Assembly (NCBI GenBank): GCA_030765065.1
Contig: CM060978.1
Coordinates: 110,231,192-110,295,191, forward strand
From: Deroplatys truncata
Taxonomy: Eukaryota > Arthropoda > Insecta > Mantodea > Mantidae
Reading direction: 5' to 3'
Length of the DNA stretch: 64,000 nucleotides
The notes beneath the pieces were generated by a model. The model was given only the letters and a program-made list of their open reading frames with translations, searched no databases and was not told the origin of the DNA. The translations under genes and the position numbers were made by a program. This document shows positions 1 through 60,271 of this stretch, one piece after another. Within the stretch, counting starts at the first letter, position 1. Every line of letters begins with the position of its first letter.

Positions 1-615
1 ATAGTTTTGGAAATATTGTACAGTCTCAACTTAAATGGTCCACCCTGTATACACAGCAACATTTATTCCGTGTGCTTAATCTGCCTCATCATTGTATTCA
101 TGTACCTACTACATTGGTACTGTACGCGGTGGATCAGAAATCAAGTTACAATGGTAGAACTTTTCTTTTATCTGAAAAATTGGTTATACTGGACTGATAC
201 GCACCCCAAGTGGACAGATTTGTGCAATATGCAAGGGGCAAGAAAGCTGATGGTTTGGTGTGGTTATACACAACGGCTATAAGTCGGATAGATCGTCGAG
301 GGTTGCTGTGTGGCTAGCACGGTTACACGATCTAATATTCTTAAATTATTATTTGTGAAATTACTTCAAGGTCATGATGCACGCCAAGAAGATTAAACAT
401 GGACCACAGCGTTAAGTTTTGATTTGAGTTGCGTAAGCCCGATTTGTATTCCTCATTAGATTTATATTGGTATCTTCTAACATATGCAACTTAAAGCTCA
501 ATGGTCCACAACGATATCTCATTACAAAAGAAATATTATGCAAATTTCTCTAAGCAAAAATTAATGTGTTACAAGCACACAGCTTTCACTATGCACAATC
601 ATTTATTAATCTATT
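1..615. other. No gene seen
   Basis: AT-rich sequence with no recognisable coding region or RNA gene. The 91-codon open frame near the start has no family likeness or conserved motif that I recognise. Confidence 0.5.
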
Positions 616-1276
616 ACTTTCTCACCTACGTACAGTAGGTAGGGAAATATTGTATTCCACCCAAAAATTCGATTTCGAGATTTCACCGGAAATATATGTT
701 GAGGTCCCCTGAAAAAAAAGGGGGGAAAAAAGCGTTTCTAGAAGAAGGTCCACGTGCGCGCGCGTGTGTGTCTGTGAAAATCATAACTCAAAAACAAAAG
801 TCAGATAAATACCAGACTTGGTATTCGAGTTTAGTATCTCTTAAGGATGCGACACGAAGATTTTCAAGAAAATTCCCCACCCCAAACTACCCTTTACATA
901 CAACATTTTTCGAAAATTTTTATTTTCTAAAATTGGTTCTAACGATTTTGATTAAAATACCATATATGAAAGATACTTACATGGCAGATAAAATGTATAT
1001 ATTGAATTTTCTGAGAATAGCCTTTCATTCGGAAGTAAATTTGTGTAATTTTGTATAACTTGTAAACGTTAAGCGATAGACGAAAACGTACCACAGGAAA
1101 ATGTAGATATCTTTAAAACACAGTTTACTTAATATAGTTTTTTGTGCATAAGCCGTTTCTAGATACCCGTTATTAAAGGTTCGAATTGTTCATTTCTTGG
1201 CCGTTCTCTCAAAGTCCTTTTGAGATAGCATTTGAGATAGGGGGTAGAGAAAGTCATGTGAATGTATCACATCAGA
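616..1276 (-). repeat. Family A repeat, copy A1 (internally deleted)
   Basis: Reverse-oriented copy of the window's main interspersed repeat. It starts with the tail end (ACTTTCTC, then a hairpin-like stretch and the shared block CCACCCAAAAATTCGAT) and ends with the reverse complement of the head (AGAGAAAGTCATGTGA...CATCAGA). The tail half includes the conserved short CG/TG tract and the block around CGATTTTGATTAAAAT. About 280 bases of the head half are missing compared with the best copy at 58177-59118. It is non-coding: the 120-codon frame inside it is not shared by other copies. Confidence 0.8.
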
Positions 1277-2180
1277 ATTTTTTTATATCTATTCCACGAA
1301 TCTATAATAATATTGTGTGTGTGTGTGATCTAGGAAATCATCAACGGGTTTTGATAATTCCTTCACCATTGAAAAGCACAACAAAGATTTTAAAACCAGA
1401 GGTTAGTGTGGGGGGGGGAAGATTTTCATATTCATGTCAACCAATTTTATACGGTATTCGTTGAATATCGTAGTATATCTGCGAACATGGCAAATTTTAA
1501 TTACTTCTAGCCCAAAAGCGTAAATGGGGAGGCCTAAAATCTTTTAAAATGGAGTTATTGCAGAAGGAGTTGTATATTGTGTTCATATAATCAATTTTTT
1601 CTCTGATTTCGCTGAACTTTGTTAGCAAGAGGTATTGTTTGCTATGATTTTGACAAAAAATTGTACTTTTGGGTTTTAAAATTTGAAAAACTTCCGCTAC
1701 TCTAGTTTCAATCCTTATTTTCAACCCCAACCTGAAAAGAAAAGAAAAACGCTCTTTGGCCTATCTACACACCCAACCAAAATTGTAGACTACGTTAACA
1801 CTCTGAAAAACCACCCCTACCATATTTTCAACCCCCTATGTATAAATCTGCTGTTTAATCATCTGGTCAAAATATAAAATCATGCTATAGGAATTGACTA
1901 AAATCACACATTACCTCATAAATTCTCAAAACTGCCTAACCCTTATTTTTAATGATATAATACCTCGGTATGTTTACCTTTTGTTTTTAACTCCTTATAG
2001 ACAAAACTATTTAGCTTGGCTAATTTGGGGACAAATTTATGCTGCACCTTTTGTACACATTTGCACCATTTGGCTAATCTGCACAAAACTTTGGGCATTT
2101 ACTCTTTAAGCACAAGTAAAAATAACTGCAGGTTACTCAAGATTCAAAAACCATCCCTGTCTTTACTTGCACCCCCATAA
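1277..2180 (+). repeat. Family C repeat, copy C1
   Basis: This stretch resembles 28655-29560 in order and content. Shared blocks include GGGTTTTGATAATTC followed by a GAAAAGCA motif, AAATGGGGAGG followed by an AAAAT run, and a final series of lines with CATTTG-GTCAAA-type motifs and pyrimidine-rich ACCACCCCTACC. No protein is conserved. The two copies differ by many substitutions and small indels, so the family looks old. Confidence 0.55.
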
Positions 2181-4702: not shown

Positions 4703-4997
4703 GTCGTCCTCCGTAATGTAGTAGTTACCATGCTAACCTCTAGTTCCCGAGGTCGCGGGTTCAAACCCGGCGGATGGCGATGGATTTTTTTCGGGCGTAA
4801 AAATCCTTAGCATGGCTTCCTTCCGAAGGGAAGTAAAGCCGGTGGTCCCGTGTCGTAGATTTACGGCATGTAAAAGAACCTCAAGCTTGTTAAAGAGGCC
4901 TCTAGCAAAATTAACGGTCTTTCACGCCCAATATAGAATGGGACGCTAAGGACCGCAGGAGTTAAAGAGCGTCCATAAATAAAACTCAATTTAACTA
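4703..4997 (+). repeat. SINE1, full-length copy
   Basis: tRNA-derived SINE. The head starts GTCGTCCTCCGT and carries a pol III B box, GGGTTCAAACCC, at 4757-4768. The body holds the family core GTCGTAGATTTACGGCATG and ends AATAAAACTCAATTTAA. It is flanked by a 7-base direct repeat GTAGGAT (4696-4702 and 4998-5004), consistent with target-primed insertion. Four more copies in this window (11.5, 17.4, 48.3 and 57.2 kb) share the core. The 61-codon reverse frame inside it is not a gene. Confidence 0.88.
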
Positions 4998-11517: not shown

Positions 11518-11650
11518 TGCCGTAAATCTACGACACGGGGCCACCGGCTTTACTTCCCTTCCGAAGGATGCCATGCTAAGGATTTTTACGCCTCTAAATT
11601 TCCACCGCCCTCCGCCGAGTTTGAACCCGCGACCAGATGGCAAGGTGGCG
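11518..11650 (-). repeat. SINE1, partial copy
   Basis: The reverse complement of the SINE1 head and core: the B-box region appears as GAGTTTGAACCCGCGACC and the core as CGTAAATCTACGACACGGGG. The 3' part present in full copies is missing. Confidence 0.8.
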
Positions 11651-17443: not shown

Positions 17444-17675
17444 GGTGTCGTCCTCCGTGCTAGCCTCTAGTTTCCAAGGTCGCGGGTTCAAATCCTTCGG
17501 AAGGGGAATAAAGCCGATGGTCCCGTGTCGCAGATTTACGGCATGTAAAAGAATCTCAAGCCTGTTAAAGAGGCCTCTGAGCAAAATTACCGGTCTTTCA
17601 CCCCAATATAGAATGGGACGCTAAAGACCACAGCAGTTAAATAGCGTCCATAAATAAAGCTCAATTTAATTTTAA
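17444..17675 (+). repeat. SINE1 copy
   Basis: The head GTGTCGTCCTCCGTGCTAGC lacks about 15 bases of the A-box region and is followed by a B box in CGCGGGTTCAAATCC. A deletion removes the segment between the B box and the TTCGGAAGGGGAATAAAGCC block. The core GTCGCAGATTTACGGCATG and the 3' end are present. Confidence 0.85.
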
Positions 17676-48268: not shown

Positions 48269-48561
48269 GGTGTCGTCCTCCGTGGTCTAGGGTTGCCATG
48301 CTAGCTTTAGTTCCCGAGATTTCGGAATCAAACCCGGCGGAGGGTGATGGATATTTTCGGGCGTAAAAATCCTTAGTATGGCTTCTTTCGGAAGGGAAGT
48401 AAAGCCAGTGGTCCCGCGTCGTAAATTTACGGCACGTAAAAGAACCTCAAGCCTGATAAAGAGGCCTCTGAGCAAAATTTCCGGTCTTTCACGTCCAATA
48501 TAGAATGGGACGCTAAGGGCCATATTAGTTAAAGAGCATCCGTAAATAAAAAAAGAGGGAG
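48269..48561 (+). repeat. SINE1 copy
   Basis: Full-length: GTGTCGTCCTCCGTGGTCTA (A box TGGTCTAGGGTT), a decayed B box (GGAATCAAACCC), and core GTCGTAAATTTACGGCACG. It is flanked by AATCGC on both sides (48263-48268 and 48562-48567), a short possible target duplication. Confidence 0.85.
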
Positions 48562-48562
48562 A

Positions 48563-50135
48563 ATCGCTTTAAGCGATAGTAATTTTTTTAAGAGATAGTT
48601 GCTATGTGGAGCATTTCATTCTCTTTGAATGTTCAGGACATTAAAATAAATAAATAAACGAATAAGGAATTTTCATTTCAGCAAAAGTATAAGTATTGGA
48701 AAATTCAAACAAATAACAAGGAATATCTCGGATATGGTTCACTCGAAAAAAAAATGTATATGACATAAATTCTGTGTTTTAATAATCTACATTTTTACTT
48801 TCTCTACTACGTATAGTAAGTAGGGGAAGTATTGCATTCCACCCAAAAATTCGATACCGAGATTTCACCGGAAATACATGTTTTGAGACCTCCTGAATCC
48901 AAAAAAAGCATTTTTGGAAACATGTCCGTGTGTGTGTCTGTGTGTGTGTGTGTGTCTGTGTGTGTCTGTGTGTCTGTGTGTCTGTGAACAGCATAACTCA
49001 AAAACGAACAGTCGGATAAACACTAAACTTGGTATTTAGGTTCAGTATCTTCCAGAGATGCGACACGAAGGTTTTCAAGAAAATCCCCCCACCCCAGACT
49101 ACCCTTTACATGGAAGATTTTTCGAAAATTTTAATTTTCTCAAAAATGGCTCTAACGATTTTGATGAAAATATCATATGTTTAAGATAATGTCATGAGAA
49201 ATGAAATGTATATCTCGAATTTTCTGGGAATGTCTCCAAAAGTATTCTTCACTGTGAACGACTTTTGCATAACTGGTAAACCATAAGAGATAGACAAAAT
49301 GTTACTACACAAAAAATGTAGATCGCATTAAAATACACAACTTATGTCATATACATTTCTTTTGTTGAATGAGCCGTTTTTGAGATATTGCTTGTTATAT
49401 CCTTAAATTTTCCAATACTTATACTTTTTCTCAAAGTCATTATTCATTTTTTATATGTCCTGGACATGCAAAGAGAATGGAATGCGCCACATAGCAACCA
49501 GCGTTAAAATATTTGACTATCGCTTAAAAGCTACCATATTCCCCTTGCATCTACAAGAAAATTACCAATAAGATTGACATCTCGATATCTCGATTAACAT
49601 GAAGCATATGGAGAATAGGCGTTTGTAAAAATAGATTGTACAAGAGTAGAGAAAGTCATGTGAGTGTAACACATCAGATTTTTTGTAGTAAATTTTGTCT
49701 ATCTCTTATGGTCATGCAAAACTCATTCAGATGAAGAGGACTTTTGGGGATATTCCTAAAAAATTCAAGATACACATTTCATTTGCCATTAATATGCCTT
49801 AAACGTATGATATTTTAATCAAAATCGTTAGAGCCATTTTTGAGAAAATCAAAATTTTCTAAAAGTGTACCATGTAAAAGGTAGGCTGGGGTGGGGAAAT
49901 TTTCCTAAAAATCTTCATACCGCATCCTTGGAAGATATTGAACCTAAATACCAAGTTTGATGTTTATTCGACTTTTCGTTTTTGAGTTAGAAAAGTCACA
50001 CACACGGAAATGTTTTCAAAACGCTTTATTTGGATTCAGGGCACCTCAAAACGTGTATTTCCGGAGAAATCTCGGTATGGAATTTTTGGGTGGAATACAA
50101 TACCTCCCCTACTTACAATGCATAATAGAGATAGT
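48563..50135 (+). repeat. Family A repeat, copy A16, host of a nested copy
   Basis: Forward copy beginning within the head (CGCTTTAAGCGATAGTAAT). It is interrupted at 48797-49677 by A17 and resumes at TGTAGTAAATTTTGTCTAT. It ends AATAGAGATAGTGAAAA. Removing A17 and one copy of the 6-base repeat restores the standard order of the element across the junction. Confidence 0.85.
48797..49677 (-). mobile_element. Family A repeat, copy A17, nested in A16
   Basis: A complete reverse copy of 881 bases: ACTTTCTCTACTACGTATAG at the left, GTGAGTGTAACACATCAG at the right. The repeated ATTTTT at 48791-48796 and 49678-49683 is the target duplication, and the target site (ACATTTTTGTG in other copies) is uninterrupted elsewhere. 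The internal tract is (TG)n with TC interruptions (48927-48985). Confidence 0.88.
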
Positions 50136-52959: not shown

Positions 52960-54929
52960 GCCTCAAAATCAGATTTTTAAATTTAAAGTTCATCTTTTAC
53001 AGGAACAGAGTATAAGAAATTTATACCAACAAAGACTTACACATGAACTACAGATGGTTGAAACTAATGACAATATTGAAGAAGAATGGATTGGGTTAAA
53101 CACAGCAATGTTGAAATAGCTAATGAGGTTCTTGGAAAAAATAAAACATCGAACCGGAAAAGGGGCCTAAAAAGATGGCACTCAGAGATAGCCAATAGTA
53201 TTAAAGAAAAACAGAGTGCCTATAATTATTACTTACAAACAACAACAGATGAAGCGTGGGAAATATACAAACAGAAAAGAAATATAGCTAAACATTTGAT
53301 TAAAGGAAGCCATAATGAATCTTGTGAAAGATTTGTTGCTAATAATGAATACGACATTCACGGAAGACAGAACATAGCATTTAAGCTAATAAAACACATG
53401 AATAAAACTGAGAAAGATAATGAAAATATTAATGTGATAACAGAAAACCAATGGATAAATTACTATAGAAATTTATGGTGCGATGAAAACAATGAAGAAA
53501 TTTATGTATAGAAAATAACAGCAATTTTGTGGATCAAATAGACATAAAATAATTACAAGAGGCTTTAAAAGCAACAAAAATAGAAAAGCCACCGGGCTAG
53601 ATGAAATTAATGGTGAAATGATCAAATATGGTGGAATGATATTAAAATTCAGTTTACTTCATTTTTAAACACGTGTTGGAAGAATTGCTCAGTACCCGTA
53701 GAATGGAATACAGCTAAAGTCACTCCTCTATTTAAAAAGGCAATAAAAGCGATACAGGGAACAATAGAGAAATAAGCTTATTAAGTGCAGGCTATAACAT
53801 TTATGGGAAAATTCTAAATCAGAGATTACAAGCTATCACTGATGCACTGATATCAGAACAACAACCGCGCTTTAGGAAAGGGTGTTCATCTAGCGATAAT
53901 GTACTCATAATCAGACAAATTATTGAAAAACGCCGTAAATTTAACCTAGAAACTCACATAGCATTTATTGACTATGAGAAAGCCTTTGATAAAGTAAAAC
54001 GGCCCCTTTTATGGAGCATTTTAGAGATAAGAGGATTTCCTAAACATCTTATTAATGCTATCAAGAGTTTGTATGTAAATACCAAAATAAGAATTAATTC
54101 TGGTTTTAAAATCAAGGTGTTCGAACAAGGGTGTAGCATATCGCCCACTTTCTTTAACTTATGTATTGACGATCTAGTTTTTAGGTAGAAAGAGGGAATA
54201 CAGCTCGGGATAATAGAATTAAATGCGCCTTTAAGCACTTTACTATATGCTGATGATCAAATATTTATACAAGAAACAGAAGATAATCTACAAAGAGCAG
54301 TATATAGATTAAACCAAAATGCAATTCATTACAGCTTAACTATATCTACAAATAAAACAAAGACAATGTCTTTTAAAGGGAAGAATCATGTTAGATCAAA
54401 GATACTAATAAATGGTAAAATATTAGAACAGGTATCCCACTTCAGTTATCTAAGATGTGACATTAGTTTTAAATTTCACAAAGACATTGAGATGAAGGAT
54501 AATAGGGTTCAAAGCATTTGTGGAGCTTTAGGAAAAGAAACATAAATTAAGTTCTATAAGATTATGTTTTTACCTGCTTCATTATATGGTTCCGAGTCGT
54601 GGGCAATAACAAAAAGAGAGAGATCATGTATTCAGTCCGCCGAAATGAAATTTTTGAGGTATGTAAAGGGATGCACTAGAGCTGACAAAATAAGAAACGA
54701 ATCAATAAGATAAGATTTGAATATTGTATCAGTAAATGATAAGATTGATGAAAATAAAAGAAATTAGAAAGAACATGTTGATAGAATGACAGATGATAGA
54801 ATACCAATAAATATATAATGAATTACCAACTGACAGGGAGCAAAGGTTTAGGAAGACCACGCAAGAGATGGCTAGAGACCGGAACAGGGGATATCACCTA
54901 ATCCTTGAAAGAAGAAGAAGAAGAAAATA
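52960..54929 (+). pseudogene. LINE ORF2 remnant with reverse transcriptase and (GAA)n tail
   Basis: The main LINE of the window. The endonuclease domain is missing: the copy starts within the linker before the RT (KFKVHLLQEQSIRNLYQQRL, then RKRGLKRWHSEIANSIKEKQ). The linker runs to 53511, then a frameshift. RT motifs follow: a decayed KATG-LDEI near 53580, FRKGCSSSDNVLIIRQIIEK (53870-53930), box A FIDYEKAFDKVKR (53964-54002), QGCSISPTFFNLCIDD (54125-54175), an in-frame TAG at 54186, then the catalytic LLYADDQIF (54240-54266). The C-terminal part includes LYGSESWAIT, EMKFLRYVKGCTRADKI and VDRMTDDRIP. It ends with CTAATCCTTGAAAGAAGAAG at about 54897-54920. Catalytic Asp residues remain, but stops and frameshifts make it inactive. 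Clade (RTE-like or Jockey-like) is unresolved. Confidence 0.88.
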
Positions 54930-55446
54930 TTTTAAAGGACCTGATATGAAATGTTGGTGTTGGGTTTAAAACTTTCGTCATTTTTGGATTGCATCAGTTT
55001 ATTTGTCCTACTTTTATAATCTTCATTCCGCATAGGTATGTCCTAAATCAGTGACTATGTTGCTGTTACATTCCACCTTTTCGAAAAGTATCGAATTGTT
55101 TTCTGATTTTATCCGCACGCAACCGAAATGAACGCAGTACCTAAGTACTATCTGCACGCAAATGCGTCCAGACTTGGATTGCTGTCGCAATTTTGTCCAT
55201 CTCGATAGAATTAAAAAACAAACAAAAATTGAGACTGTAGGCAGGTGTGGGCTAGGCTTTAGAAGGCATTTGCTACAACCGCCCTAGACTGGTACAATTC
55301 GTGAGCTGCTCACCGAATCCGTTCGATCCTAATGCGGCTCTACTGCGAGGTTACACGTTACATAGCACACGGAAAAATCTCTAGCCTCGTCATGCTGAAT
55401 CAGAAAAAGGTTGCAGCTTTACGCGTAGCAAAGATAATAAAACAAA
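54930..55446. other. No gene seen
   Basis: No coding signal. A possible B box (CCGTTCGATCCTAATG, near 55320) hints at a SINE remnant but is not enough to call one. Confidence 0.4.
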
Positions 55447-56282
55447 TCTGATGTGTTACACTCACATGACTTTCTCTACTCTTGTACAACCTATTTTTAC
55501 AAACGCTTATTCTCCATATGCTTCATGTTAATCGAGATATCGAGATGTTAATCTTATTGCTAATTTTCTTGTAGATGCAAGGGGAATTGCTAGGCTTTGA
55601 GCGTTTAAACGCTGGCTGCTATGCGGAGTATTCCATTCTATTTGTATTACCAGGACAAAAAAAATGAATAACGAATTTGAAAAAAGTATAAGTATTGGAA
55701 AATTTAAGGCAATAACAAGCAATATCTCGAAAATGGTTCACTCAACAACAGAAATGTATATGACATAAATTGTGTATTTTAACGCGATCTACATTTTTGT
55801 GTAGTAAAATTTTGTCTATCTCTTATGGTTTACCAGTTATGCAAAAGTCGTTCACAATGAAGAATACTTTTGGAGACAATCCCAGAAAATTCGAGATATA
55901 CATTTCATTTGTCATGAAAATAACTTAAACATATGATATTTTAATCAAAATCGTTAGAGCCGTTTTTGAGAAAATTAAAATTTTCGAAAAATGTTCCATG
56001 TAAAGGGTAGTATGGGGTGGGGGGATTTTCTTGAAAACCTTCGTGTCGCATCCTTGGAAGATACTGAACCTAAATACCAAGTTTGGTGTTTATCCGACTG
56101 TTCGTTTCTGAGTTATGCTGTTCACAGACAGACACACATACACACACACACACGGACATGTTTCCAAAAATGCTTTTTTTGGATTCAGGGGGTCTCAAAA
56201 CATATTTCCGGTGAAATCTCGGTATCGAATTTTTGGGTGGAATACAATACTTCCTCTACTTACTATACGTAGTAGAGAAAGT
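55447..56282 (+). mobile_element. Family A repeat, copy A18, nearly complete
   Basis: 836 bases from TCTGATGTGTTACACTCACA to TACGTAGTAGAGAAAGT. All standard blocks are present, including GGTTCACTCAACAACAGAAA, GCGATCTACATTTTTGTGTA, AAATCGTTAGAGCCGTTTTT, a short CA tract (56132-56152) and the hairpin TACTA-TACG-TAGTA at 56260-56273. It is about 100 bases shorter than A20, through a head-half deletion and a shorter CA tract. Confidence 0.92.
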
Positions 56283-56344
56283 AAAAAGAATAAAAAGAAA
56301 GGAGAGGGGGTGTGAGAGAGACGAAGCCATATATTATCAGTTCA

Positions 56345-56504: not shown

Positions 56505-57640
56505 TAATGGTATTTAATAAAAATCATTAGAGCTATTTCTGAGGAAATAAAAATATAACGATATGTTTTTTTATGTAAGGGTAATTCGGGGCGGGAGGAT
56601 TTTCTTGAAAAATTTGGCGTCGCTTCCTTCGAAGGTGCGGAACTAACAAACCAGGTTTGCTATTTATCCGGAATTTACTTTTTGAGTTATGCTGTTTACA
56701 CACACGCGCACACACACAACTTACACACACGAACCTTTTACCTAAAATTTATTTCAAGAAAATCTCCAATACAAATACCTCTTAAGTGGAACAATTTTCG
56801 TTATATGTGATTTTCTCAAAAATGGCTCTAACGATTTTGATTAAAGTGCACTATATTTAGATATTTACGTAGAAATAATATGTATATGTTGCATGCTTTT
56901 ACTGAAATTCATAATTTGGCGAAGATCCTAAGCAGATCATGAAAAGTTGGCGTATAATGTAACATTATTCTGTACACTATCTGACGGGGCCTCTAAAAGC
57001 CGGCAGATAGCGAAAGGTTAGGTTAGATTAGGTTCAATTTGGGGTTGGATTAGGGTTAGAGTTACACTACACGCCTAACCGGCGCCGTCATTTCATGAAG
57101 AACCGGGCAGAACGAATACTCCAACAAAAGATTGCGACTACATATTTTAAATTTTCTAGAAATAGTATGAGAAGCCCTCTTCTTTCGGAAGAGAAATTAA
57201 AAATTAAATTGAGTTTTATTTATGGAGGCTCTTTAACTGCTGTGGTCCTTAGCGTCCCATTCTATATTGGGCATAAAAGACCAGAAATTTTGCTCAGAGG
57301 CCTCTTTATCAGACTTGAGGTTCTTTCACGTGCCGTAAATCTACGACGCGGGATCACCGGCTTTACTCCCCTTCCGAAGGAAGCCGTACTAAGGATTTTT
57401 ACGCCTGAAAAAAAATCCATCGCTCTCAGCCGGATTTGAACCCGCGACCTCGGGAACTGGAGGCTAGCATGGCACCCCTAGACCACGGAGGACGACTTTT
57501 CGAAAGAGAATTTTATGTAATTGTATAATAGTAAACCACAAAACTTAGACAAGAGCTTACCGTAAAAAAGAAAACTGCGTATCTCCTTTAAACACAGAAG
57601 TTATTTCAGGTAACTTATTGTAGCATCAGGCAATATTTGT
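56505..57640. mobile_element. Fold-back family A element (A19)
   Basis: A forward part, 56505-56780 (AAAATCATTAGAGCTATTTC ... CACACGAACC), is followed at once by a reverse part starting near 56785. The reverse part (TTTTCTCAAAAATGGCTCTA) continues at 57137-57195 and 57511-57640. Foreign sequence at about 56900-57130 and a SINE1 at 57196-57497 interrupt it. Both outer heads are missing. Confidence 0.6.
57196..57497 (-). repeat. SINE1 copy inserted in A19
   Basis: A reverse, full-length SINE1 flanked by TTTCGGAAGAGAA (57183-57195) and TTTCGAAAGAGAA (57498-57510), one mismatch in 13. The minus-strand head is GTCGTCCTCCGTGGTCTAGG with the B box GGGTTCAAATCC. The 114-codon forward frame across it is not a gene. 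Confidence 0.9.
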
Positions 57641-57780: not shown

Positions 57781-58084
57781 CTTTTATAAGAACAGTTTGC
57801 AGAAGAGAGATAAAGATAAACATTAATAAATAGACAAATTCATATGAAGGAAACTCACCAGAAGTTTTACTGTTGCATAATTGGGTAGTATCGTGTTGCG
57901 CTGATGGTCAGTCTGTCACCCTGACCCTTTTTCAGAAAAAGCCATTAGAACCTTGAGATGTGCAAGGGGTTGCTAATTAGTAATTACCATCTTAATAGGT
58001 GCTGGTATTGCACCGAGGATCTGTACGTTCTCAGACTTTATCTCGCTTTTAATAAGTGTTAGTGAATATGTGTATACAGCAAAC

Positions 58085-58176
58085 GGAACCGCGAGTTGCG
58101 AGTTATGGAAGATTTCACATATCGCAAAGTGCAGCTTACACTGGCCGGGTCAGAAATGGCGGTGTATACGTAAAAA
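58085..58176 (+). pseudogene. FLYWCH zinc finger, 5' part (interrupted)
   Basis: Two forward frames give the first half of a FLYWCH finger: LRVMEDFTYRKVQLTLAGSE (58095-58155) and, one frame over, KWRCIRK (58152-58175), which supplies the W-x-C. FLYWCH domains bind DNA and occur at the N terminus of many MULE-type transposases and of insect regulators. The finger stops at the TAAAAA target of family A copy A20. Its second half resumes at 59119. One frameshift lies between the two frames. Confidence 0.75.
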
Positions 58177-58917
58177 TCTGATGTGTTACACTCACATGAC
58201 TTTCTCTACTCTTGTACAAACTATTTATACAAACGCTTATTCTCCATCTACTTCATGTTAATCGAGATAAACATTTGCATAGTCTATCTTATTGCTTATT
58301 TTCTTGTAGATGTAAGGGGAATATATATTTACAAGGGCAATTTGGAAATACAGTAGCGTTTAAGCACATACATATATCTTAATAGCTGGTTGCTAGGTGC
58401 AGCACCATTCCCTTTCCCAAAGATTAATACTCTTTGCATATCCAAGACAAAAAAATGAATAACGAATTCCCATTTGAGAATATAAGTACTGAATATTTTT
58501 AGGGAATAACAATGGTTCACTCAACAAAAAAAATGTATATGACATAAATTGTGTATTTCAACGCGATCTACATTTTTGTGTAGTAAAATTTTGTCTATCT
58601 CTTATGGTTTACCAGTTATGCAAAAGTCGTTCATAATGAAGAATAATTTTGGAGACATTCCCAGAAAATTCGAGATATACATTTCATTTCTCAAGACATT
58701 ATCTTAAGCATATGATATTTTCATCAAAATCGTTAGAGCCATTTTTGAGAAAATTAAAATTTTCGAAAAATCTTCCATGTAAAGGGTAGTCTGGGGTGGG
58801 GGGATTTTCTTGAAAACCTTCGTGTCGCATCTCTGGAAGATACTGAACCTAAATACCAAGTTTGGTGTTTATCCGACTGTTCGTTTTTGAGTTATGCTGT
58901 TCACAGACACACACACA

Positions 58918-58978
<61 letters not shown>

Positions 58979-59118
58979 ACACACACACGGACATGTTTCC
59001 AAAAATGCTTTTTTTGGATTCAGGGGGTCTCAAAACATATATTTCCAGTGAAATCTCGGTATCGAATTTTTGGGTGGAATGCAATACTTCCCCTACTTAC
59101 TATACGTAGTAGAGAAAG
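58177..59118 (+). mobile_element. Family A repeat, copy A20, inserted in the FLYWCH finger
   Basis: The best complete copy (942 bases): head TCTGATGTGTTACACTCACA, tail TACGTAGTAGAGAAAG. TAAAAA at 58171-58176 recurs at 59119-59124 (a preceding G also matches), so deleting the element plus one TAAAAA restores the codons of the interrupted zinc finger. It has the longest internal CA tract in the family (about 58906-58974) and no coding frame shared with other copies. The tail holds a 5-base-pair hairpin, TACTA/TAGTA. Confidence 0.92.
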
Positions 59119-60271
59119 TAAAAACTGCAGTGTGCATCTTTCTCTGAGGTGGATAATGACATGAAATGCAGACTTGTTGGGGAACATAATCATGATCAGA
59201 GCCAAATAATTATTAGAAAATATTTCCAACAGCTTGAAGAGGAAAGCGAAGACAAAACTGAGAGCCAGTCAAAGTGAATGCGAAAATAAATTTTGGCAGC
59301 GCCGATTGTGATATATGAATGGTTAACAAGTATGACCATAAAAGTAAAATTTATTTTTGTGCAGAAAAACGGAAGCACCTCCCGCCTGCTCCAAAAACCA
59401 TAGAGGAAGTAAATGGGGCTCTTGACTCCGTGAAAACAACTTCCTATGAGGAGCAACGACTGGAACAGCCAAACGGTTGCTTTTTCAACAAATGGCAATT
59501 TTATGTACTTGTGCGAAAGTCTGGACAACACTCTTCAGTACTGCACAAGACACTTCCATTAGTTGTTGCAATTCATGGATCTGAAAATGGAAACTACAAT
59601 CCATTAGTATTTTGTCTGCTACCTGCCTTCAGACTACTGAAAGAAAAATGTGGACATAGAGTTTAAACTTCAACCAACAAGAATCATGGTAATTCCGAGG
59701 CAGGTATTCGTGTAGTTATCGATACTGTCTGCCCGGATGTAATTTTAACAGGTTAGTGCAATACATTTACTATTTATGTGAGTAATATTCCTTTGGGATT
59801 TCCTTTTTATTGCGTAACACTATGCTGGACATTTGGGTTTCCTTTTTGTATCCTGAGGAGGTCGAAAACTATTTGTGCAGGACCTAATTTCTGTTCAACC
59901 GCAAGCCCAGATAGTAGAGGCATAACGTAACTATTTAGTTAAAAATTACATAGCTAATAATTCTCCGATTTCCAACTCCCATATGGTCATCAGATTTATC
60001 GGCGTCAGATAGAACCACAAATACTGCGAATCTTTTCATTCACAGTTTACCACACTCACCCAAGCAACTTTCGTCTCTTGGCTGCTTTAAAGAACTTTCA
60101 GACAAACGTTTCAATTGCTAAACGTAGCTCAGCGACTCCACAGAAAGTGTTCAACACGAAGTACAAGGCTGTCATGAAATTTTCGGAGGAGGCAATTAAA
60201 AATTACAGGAATAATGAAACTGGTAGATTTTGTTTCATTAAGCGTGTTGCCTATAGGTATGCAAAGAAATA
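59119..60271 (+). pseudogene. FLYWCH finger 3' part and MULE-type transposase remnant
   Basis: Continues 58085-58176. AACTGCAGTG starts the second half of the finger: NCSVHL, then one frame over DNDMKCRLVGEHNHD with the closing H-x-H (59175-59195). A linker follows, then a 115-codon frame with RKHLPPAPKTIEEVNGALDS and LPLVVAIHGSENGNYNPLVF (59350-59620), typical of the MULE transposase N-terminal and core region. Next comes SEAGIRVVIDTVCPDVILTG (59695-59755). A gap follows; then YPEEVENYL (about 59850), RFPTPIWSSDLSASDRTTNT (59965-60025), the RTNN-type motif before the last catalytic region, and HTHPSNFRLLAALKNFQTNV (60052-60111). The frame ends VAYRYAKK-stop at 60269-60271. At least five frameshifts or stops; the GC-FH motif is missing. 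It is inactive. Confidence 0.8.

Follow-up and report, generated by a model that had tools for sequence, protein, structure and literature searches.

Family A of the mantis Deroplatys truncata: a probable HINE (short non-autonomous Helentron) that probably brings its own T-run and is often nested in its own copies

Family A, a mobile element that interrupts a FLYWCH-like relic in the genome of Deroplatys truncata, is in all probability (roughly 0.9 by our estimate) a HINE, i.e. a short non-autonomous Helentron (a Helitron2-type rolling-circle transposon), here lying on the minus strand. We reason so because it has the 5' terminus TTTTT-ACTTTCTCTACT in common with a Rep-bearing element and possesses a 12-bp inverted repeat together with hairpin motifs. 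At the loci with a read empty site, a T-rich target is seen to have gained the element and about five Ts, and the TAAAAA repeat at its borders is mostly the element's own T-run, not a copied target. The window (the whole analysed stretch of 64,000 nucleotides) is part of contig C4 of the 4.29-Gb genome, and harbours the following features (5' and 3' refer to the strand given):

58172..59119, minus strand: predicted HINE (non-autonomous Helentron/Helitron2-type), 948 bp, 5' end at 59119 and 3' end at 58172, as judged from empty sites, 52 two-ended copies and the Rep-bearing partner
59108..59119, minus strand: 5' asymmetric (sub)terminal inverted repeat ACTTTCTCTACT, part of the longest perfect inverted repeat between the 60-bp ends
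59098..59111, minus strand: 5' hairpin motif TACTACGTATAGTA with a 5-bp stem, overlapping the 5' inverted repeat
58199..58210, minus strand: AGTAGAGAAAGT, the subterminal inverted repeat of the 3' side, separated from the 3' end by 27 nt (22 nt and the T-run)
58181..58197, minus strand: hairpin motif of the 3' side, ATGTG-agtgtaa-CACAT, immediately before the terminus
58172..58176, minus strand: terminal T-run TTTTT, the five flanking Ts being taken as element-borne
58902..58988, no strand assigned: internal (CA)n microsatellite, from the sequence
58449..58455, no strand assigned: A7 run followed by TGAATAACG, a site used as target by other copies and uninterrupted here
48792..49683, plus strand: second family copy, inserted in another family member at the AAAAATGTAG site
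55444..56287, minus strand: another full-length family copy of a shorter subfamily (window comparison)
614..1281, plus strand: older family copy with both ends present (window comparison)
58082..58174, plus strand: FLYWCH-like relic, pre-insertion part, with KWRCIRK at its end (PF04500 only in paralog L034)
59125..59274, plus strand: FLYWCH-like relic, post-insertion part, with a frame break some 15 bp from its start (PF04500 in paralog L034 alone)

The 942-bp block at 58177-59118 is bordered on either side by TAAAAA (58171-58176 and 59119-59124), just as the original prediction had it, and the flanks joined across the block read KWRCIRKNCSVHL. With these joined flanks (292 bp) as empty-site query, 40 loci were scored from 321 first-look genome candidates; 39 of them showed an uninterrupted match over the junction (76-86% identity) and the remaining one was the source locus, so that family A does not occupy every copy of the host gene. 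All 19 paralogs that were read letter by letter (20 loci fetched, including the source) were empty, with CGTAAAAACTG exact in 9, altered by one change in 8 and by two changes in 2. The anticipated empty site was thus true in substance, but its full form, CGTAAAAACTGCAG, occurred in none of the 19, because the paralogs diverge in the bases downstream of CGTAAAAACTG. Considering that the paralog sites are empty, the insertion is real, and the filled source locus exceeds the empty paralogs by a net 948 bp; owing to the A-runs on both sides, all frames from 58171-59118 through 58177-59124 are sequence-equivalent. The 19 empty paralogs and the 52 two-ended copies bear out the claim of a discrete mobile unit with fixed ends.

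What had been proposed for the host gene stood in part. The codons for KWRCIRK stop at 58174, not at 58176, and the insertion divides the N codon, whose two As belong to the A-run and whose C is at 59125. Removing the element does rejoin the finger across the joined flanks, but the host frame breaks shortly afterwards, about 15 bp past the junction, where 18 of the 19 aligned paralogs are one base longer than the host copy; being one base short and out of frame, the host copy is a broken relic. Its description as a FLYWCH-MULE gene can be kept for the first half only, and as FLYWCH-like: Pfam PF04500 was matched in paralog L034 (positions 4-62 of 62, E=1.2e-4, 22.6 bits, just below the 23.6 cut-off), Pfam found no FLYWCH domain in paralog L046 and no family in the window's own finger pieces, and for the MULE half no support was found, 59343-59663 having matched no Pfam family.

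The flanks were compared in 52 distinct two-ended copies (4 from the window, 28 from L002-L028 and 20 from L050-L053 and L058-L073). This set comprises the best-scoring copies of two queries and is not a random sample; one-ended copies were left out, as were L001 and L049 (the window itself) and L054-L057 (repeats of L050-L053). The right side reads GAGAAAG-TAA in all 52, hence the T preceding the right-hand A-run, being constant, belongs to the element. This T is followed by exactly five As in 35 copies, by two in 9 and by 3, 4, 6 or 7 in the other 8, and the 35/52 with exactly five are a sharper outcome than a loose target preference would predict. On the left (variable) side the A-run ranges from 0 to 10, with at least five uninterrupted As in 45/52 copies (the A-rich target was rightly foreseen) and 0-3 before interruption in the other 7. 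The T-rich targets of Helentrons and HINEs (at least two Ts at each end) are paralleled here, TTA (minus strand) standing at the 5' side in 52/52.

A-runs on both flanks, variable in length on one of them, might also be left by a retroposed LINE/SINE-like element with an A-tail and A-rich target duplications. We give this explanation practically no credence: the variable run precedes TCTGATG while the other end is a constant GTAA, both termini occur in the 52 compared copies (which were chosen so), and the inverted repeats and the 5' end in common with a Rep gene would be left unexplained.

A MITE-like cut-and-paste DNA transposon (ends TCTGATG...GAGAAAG, 6-bp TAAAAA duplication) accounts perfectly for the source locus, with one TAAAAA in the empty and two in the filled state; the duplication model owes its fit there to a coincidence, an element ending in GT having met a TAAAAA target. 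Elsewhere the same model meets the constant T, which is element sequence in 52/52 copies and is absent from the left flank of copy 48792-49683, and an inverted repeat of unequal placement, at the very terminus on one side but 27 nt in on the other, which is not how ordinary terminal inverted repeats are arranged. Moreover, agreement between left and right flanks is not higher within copies than across them (k=5: 0.915 in both cases, p=0.50; minimum p over 12 settings 0.11), which indicates an A-richness common to the copies and not duplicated copy by copy. The clearest case is L004, whose empty site reads GAAAG-A5-TTACT and whose filled site reads GAAAG-AAAAAAAA-element-T-AATTACT (left run A8): five As were gained, and, since the bases left of the element are AAAAA and those to its right AATTA, a five-base target duplication is excluded at this locus. 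The empty state was judged from 8 paralogs (77-82% identical to the L004 flanks), six of which (L074, L075, L077, L080, L081, L083) read GAAAG-AAAAA-TT, while L082 has one A more and L079 reads GAAAG-AAAAC-TT. We therefore reject a fixed-length duplication of 5-7 bp (as in TIR transposons and MITEs), which had been part of the original prediction, and hold a MITE-like origin to be very unlikely.

About five extra As/Ts are gained at three kinds of site (the source locus, L004 and the family's own self-insertion site), which argues that the five flanking Ts travel with the element. The self-insertion site reads GGACAT-A7 in 9 of 11 uninterrupted cases, and when filled it retains a left run of A7 in 5/7, the right-hand As being mostly five. 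Neither this site nor the source locus can discriminate between the models, because at A-runs a five-base duplication equals five element-borne As; as L004 is the sole mixed target with a read empty site, the claim of no duplication consists of one clear case plus statistics. L004, the flank permutation and the approximately five extra Ts at the three kinds of site all agree with the absence of target duplication in Helentrons and HINEs. A Helentron-type element could instead copy just one or two As of its target and bring along only the rest of the Ts, an arrangement that the arithmetic permits at L004 and at A-run sites, and for which at least two As after the T are available in 52/52 copies. 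Nothing requires it, and passages of PMC4067079 describe paralogous empty sites of mite HINEs without target modification, thus we judge it improbable, albeit the least improbable of the alternatives considered. At any single locus, Ts brought by the element next to a T-run target look exactly like a target duplication, so that such elements get filed as MITEs; to tell the two apart takes a mixed target whose empty site has been read, here L004. As an aside, AATAGAT flanks the copy at 614-1281 on both sides, which hints at a longer duplication and could be chance in A-rich DNA.

Read along the minus strand, the element starts with ACTTTCTCTACT and proceeds to AGTAGAGAAAGT, followed by ATGTG-agtgtaa-CACAT-CAGA-TTTTT. 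The inverted repeat is perfect over 12/12 bp between the 60-bp ends (none of 2000 mononucleotide shuffles reached 12, the longest being 11, twice), thereby matching the identical subterminal inverted repeats of at least 11 bp known from Helentrons and HINEs; its offsets are 0 and 27 in the 948-bp frame beginning ACTTTC. The hairpins are modest by energy: the DNA fold of the 5' one (z about -1.7, with 15 and 16 of 200 shuffles equally good) is weak on energy alone, and the 3' one, which has a 5-bp stem in sequence, folds no better than shuffles (z -0.34 and -0.73). A canonical Helitron1 (TC...CTRR), considered for the plus strand with its start at A-TC, was rejected, as the ends are ACTTTC...CAGA-T(n) and the other strand ends in AAAG followed by T. 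Rfam (gathering threshold) and ARAGORN returned no match in the window.

The orientation and the class assignment stem largely from a Rep-bearing relative. A PF14214 profile search of the genome (150 scored of 291 candidates, 152 matches) delivered a Rep group with model coordinates 8-190, in which at least 18 matches lie in a stop-free frame of 2,108-2,543 codons. PF14214 and DUF6570 co-occur in 3/3 Rep loci scanned; in L105, of which a part was read, both fall within 1,192 open codons, and this part ends in the start of a helicase, which we take from a Walker A-like stretch, Pfam having given no helicase match in the part read. A C-terminal AP endonuclease fused to the helicase marks Helentrons, for which an RPA gene is a further feature. 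All ten loci L104-L113 carry the HUH motif VEFQMRGSPHEH and the two-tyrosine motif YIIKYISK, with S between G and P in Rep motif 2 (RGSPHxH) as in Helentrons and HINEs; the residues before motif 2 are YQR, as against (F/Y)(w/l/y/k)R, the first and third fitting and the middle one not. At E 0.01, the Rep fragment resembled no solved structure. The 20 other Rep loci (L084-L103) divide into 11 with RGLPHAH and 9 in which the motif was not found. Those with RGLPHAH (L084-L087, L089-L092, L094, L099, L101) make up a second, mostly broken Helitron lineage beside the recent RGSPHEH one. L093 was tried as an autonomous copy and discarded, as it proved to be an older Rep fragment adjoining family A sequence.

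Upstream of one Rep of the L104-L113-type group (by 3.5-6 kb), a 2,500-base stretch (L114) reads TTTTTT-ACTTTCTCTACTACGTATAG, with the T-run at 619-624; the roughly 600 preceding bases match nothing in the window, while the sequence past this 5' end is family A, 92% and 94% identical to two window copies. A second 5' end follows at 1251, in the self-insertion T-run. A genome search with L114:620-2500 scored 40 of 17,330 candidates (137 matches), of which the 41 best rows were taken. The 19 near-complete matches (L114 included) all begin at query base 1-4, and in 18 of them a Rep lies 5,224-5,834 bp downstream on the same strand; for the nineteenth (C1:266427123) there is no Rep among the matches listed. 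A Rep follows at 5.1-6.0 kb in 26 of the 41 best rows and is listed for none of the other 15. The Rep regions are nearly uniform: those of 39 other scored copies are 96-99% identical to that of L105, and those of the 18 loci with the common 5' end are at least 97% identical to it (or are L105 itself). The Rep motif was read in 3 of these 18 (L105, L106, L107), the others being assigned by DNA identity.

Judged by the 5' part and the Rep region, the 5' end of family A is thus the 5' end of a mobile Rep-bearing element, and 18 of the 19 near-complete matches display the 5' end shared with a Rep/helicase element that is typical of Helentrons and HINEs. Because the same terminus heads an element whose Rep runs that way, the window element is on the minus strand, with its 5' end on the 59119 side, and the plus orientation first given to it (TCTGATG...GAGAAAG) is reversed. 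The long open frames make it probable that the Rep-bearing element is the autonomous partner. Alternatively, HINE 5' ends might lie near Rep through chance insertion in front of a Helentron unrelated to them. In favour of this, HINEs are plentiful, the L114 region has reversed family fragments besides its two 5' ends, and no downstream Rep is listed for 15 of the 41 best 5' rows; yet the start base, the composite structure and the near-constant distance recur in 18 of the 19 near-complete matches at scattered loci, and coincidence on this scale strikes us as highly implausible.

Within the known diversity, family A is a new family of a known kind (HINE), with frequent self-insertion. According to passages of PMC4067079, Helentrons and HINEs have subterminal repeats, a 3' palindrome, T-rich targets, element Ts, no target modification and microsatellites, and S versus L in the Rep motif is diagnostic for Helentron versus Helitron. 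The HINEs and Helentrons of mite, Culex and Drosophila (DINE-1) treated there resemble family A in their 12-15 bp subterminal inverted repeats and microsatellites, perhaps in the 3' palindrome (a putative one here), in T-rich targets with element Ts varying in number and no target modification, and in deriving non-autonomous copies from Rep-bearing ones with the Rep motif RGSPHxH. They differ from it, in the same passages, by the placement of the 3' inverted repeat (38-60 nt from the 3' end in mite HINEs, 27 nt here), and their Rep-bearing form is unlike the one here, which often has two nested 5' ends. The Helitron2 group, as portrayed in parts of PMC3627910 (with the 5' repeat starting 0-2 bp from its terminus and the 3' one lying 20-30 bp from the opposite terminus, followed by a hairpin), is similar in its asymmetric repeat positions, in a 5' hairpin that includes part of the 5' repeat and in its T-run targets, and dissimilar in the 7-19 bp duplications, which were not found here. 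With canonical Helitrons (Helitron1, Helraiser), as far as sections of PMC4778049 describe them, it has the rolling-circle Rep-helicase logic and a putative 3' hairpin terminator in common, but here there is no CTRR 3' end, no insertion between A and T, and the Rep motif has S, not L. A text search of one open-access library found the terminal motifs in no transposon paper (one of the three motifs occurred in 4 papers, which to judge by their titles are unrelated), and in the same library no paper containing Helentron was among the best 8 of 2,011 matches for Helentron with insect terms.

By analogy with the Helentron/Helitron literature, the partner's Rep-helicase would nick at the T-A junction of the 5' end, its helicase would then peel off the strand until halted at the 3' hairpin and T-run (the AGTAGAGAAAGTCATGTG...CATCAGA-T(n) terminus), and the freed single strand would be joined into a T-run. 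Where an element has nested in its own T-run, and the outermost end or the next one at hand is then used, composites with two 5' or two 3' ends would result.

The preferred T-run target is present inside the family's own 5' region, and copies may land there again and again, though nested copies may also descend from one composite: the A-run before TGAATAACG is a repeated target among the 52 copies, and L003, L007, L010, L014, L016, L019, L023 and L073, for example, are inserted there with outer-copy sequence on both sides. L020 and L027 are bordered on their two sides by separate parts of an outer copy, and head-to-tail pairs were seen in L008, L017, L018, L025, L067 and L068. L002 has two 3' ends, the 3' part of the outer copy lying beyond the inner 3' end and the inner 5' end adjoining unrelated sequence, and L072 shows a joint of the same kind. 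At the opposite terminus, L114 and its relatives have two 5' ends 626 bp apart, and the outer one is the start in 18 of the 26 Rep-associated rows (within the best 41 of 137 matches). Passages of PMC5148889 report composite FoHelis of Fusarium (several 5' termini, one 3' terminus) that arose when elements inserted into themselves and the leftmost 5' end was used, and the same combination of self-insertion and outermost 5' end explains the two 5' ends of L114; differently from what those passages relate, the composite is not occasional here (the 18/26 rows), and a two-3'-end chimera (L002) is found as well. Bypass of a 3' terminator has been demonstrated for Helraiser in the sections of PMC4778049. 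On C12 (112002417-112005645), three successive family 5' starts about 1.39 kb apart on one strand form a short head-to-tail or nested array.

The family is abundant, with 3,697 and 4,501 first-look candidates in two HINE searches, not all of which need be copies. In the search with the 942-bp query (40 scored of the 3,697), a single alignment spanned the full 1-942 in 19 of the 40 scored loci (source locus included), the others being covered in part. Thousands of candidates and at least 18 Rep frames of more than 2,000 codons render this genome suitable for the study of recent Helentron transposition, end choice and self-insertion. The viral contigs gave no match to the element's 3' end pattern.

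The best copies are unevenly distributed. C16 (707 Mb, 16.5% of the genome) holds none of the best family copies (0/40 and 0/40 loci in the two HINE searches, about 13 being expected over both), none of the 41 best Helentron 5' rows and none of the 40 scored Rep regions; with a share of 16.5%, drawing 0 in 80 has a probability of about 6e-7, counting only top-scoring candidates. In contrast, it harbours 8/40 SINE-like, 22/40 FLYWCH and 2/40 LINE loci and 3/40 older HINE matches, and it does carry older near-full-length copies that are 84-89% identical to the one at 55444. It is conceivable, though we lean against it, that the winning autonomous lineage is a self-insertion composite starting from the outermost 5' end, that self-targeting shaped the recent burst and that the youngest burst largely skipped C16. 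Five FLYWCH-repeat paralogs on C16 (L039, L041, L043, L047, L048) contain full-length or partial family A relatives that begin 595-600 bp from the finger match, which suggests that the HINE was copied along as the FLYWCH repeat multiplied.

Two further repeats were noted in the window. A SINE-like dispersed repeat of up to ~290 bp occurs at 4703-4994, 11518-11634, 17493-17669, 48271-48551 and 57204-57496; these copies are 85-92% identical to each other, and the 39 best copies elsewhere in the genome share 92-94% identity with the first of them. By eye, it includes a tRNA-like stretch near 57425-57490, ARAGORN and Rfam having recognised no tRNA gene in the repeat. Lastly, a LINE-like reverse transcriptase fragment lies at 53736-54188 (PF00078, E=3e-23), and its other scored genome copies are 82-90% identical.
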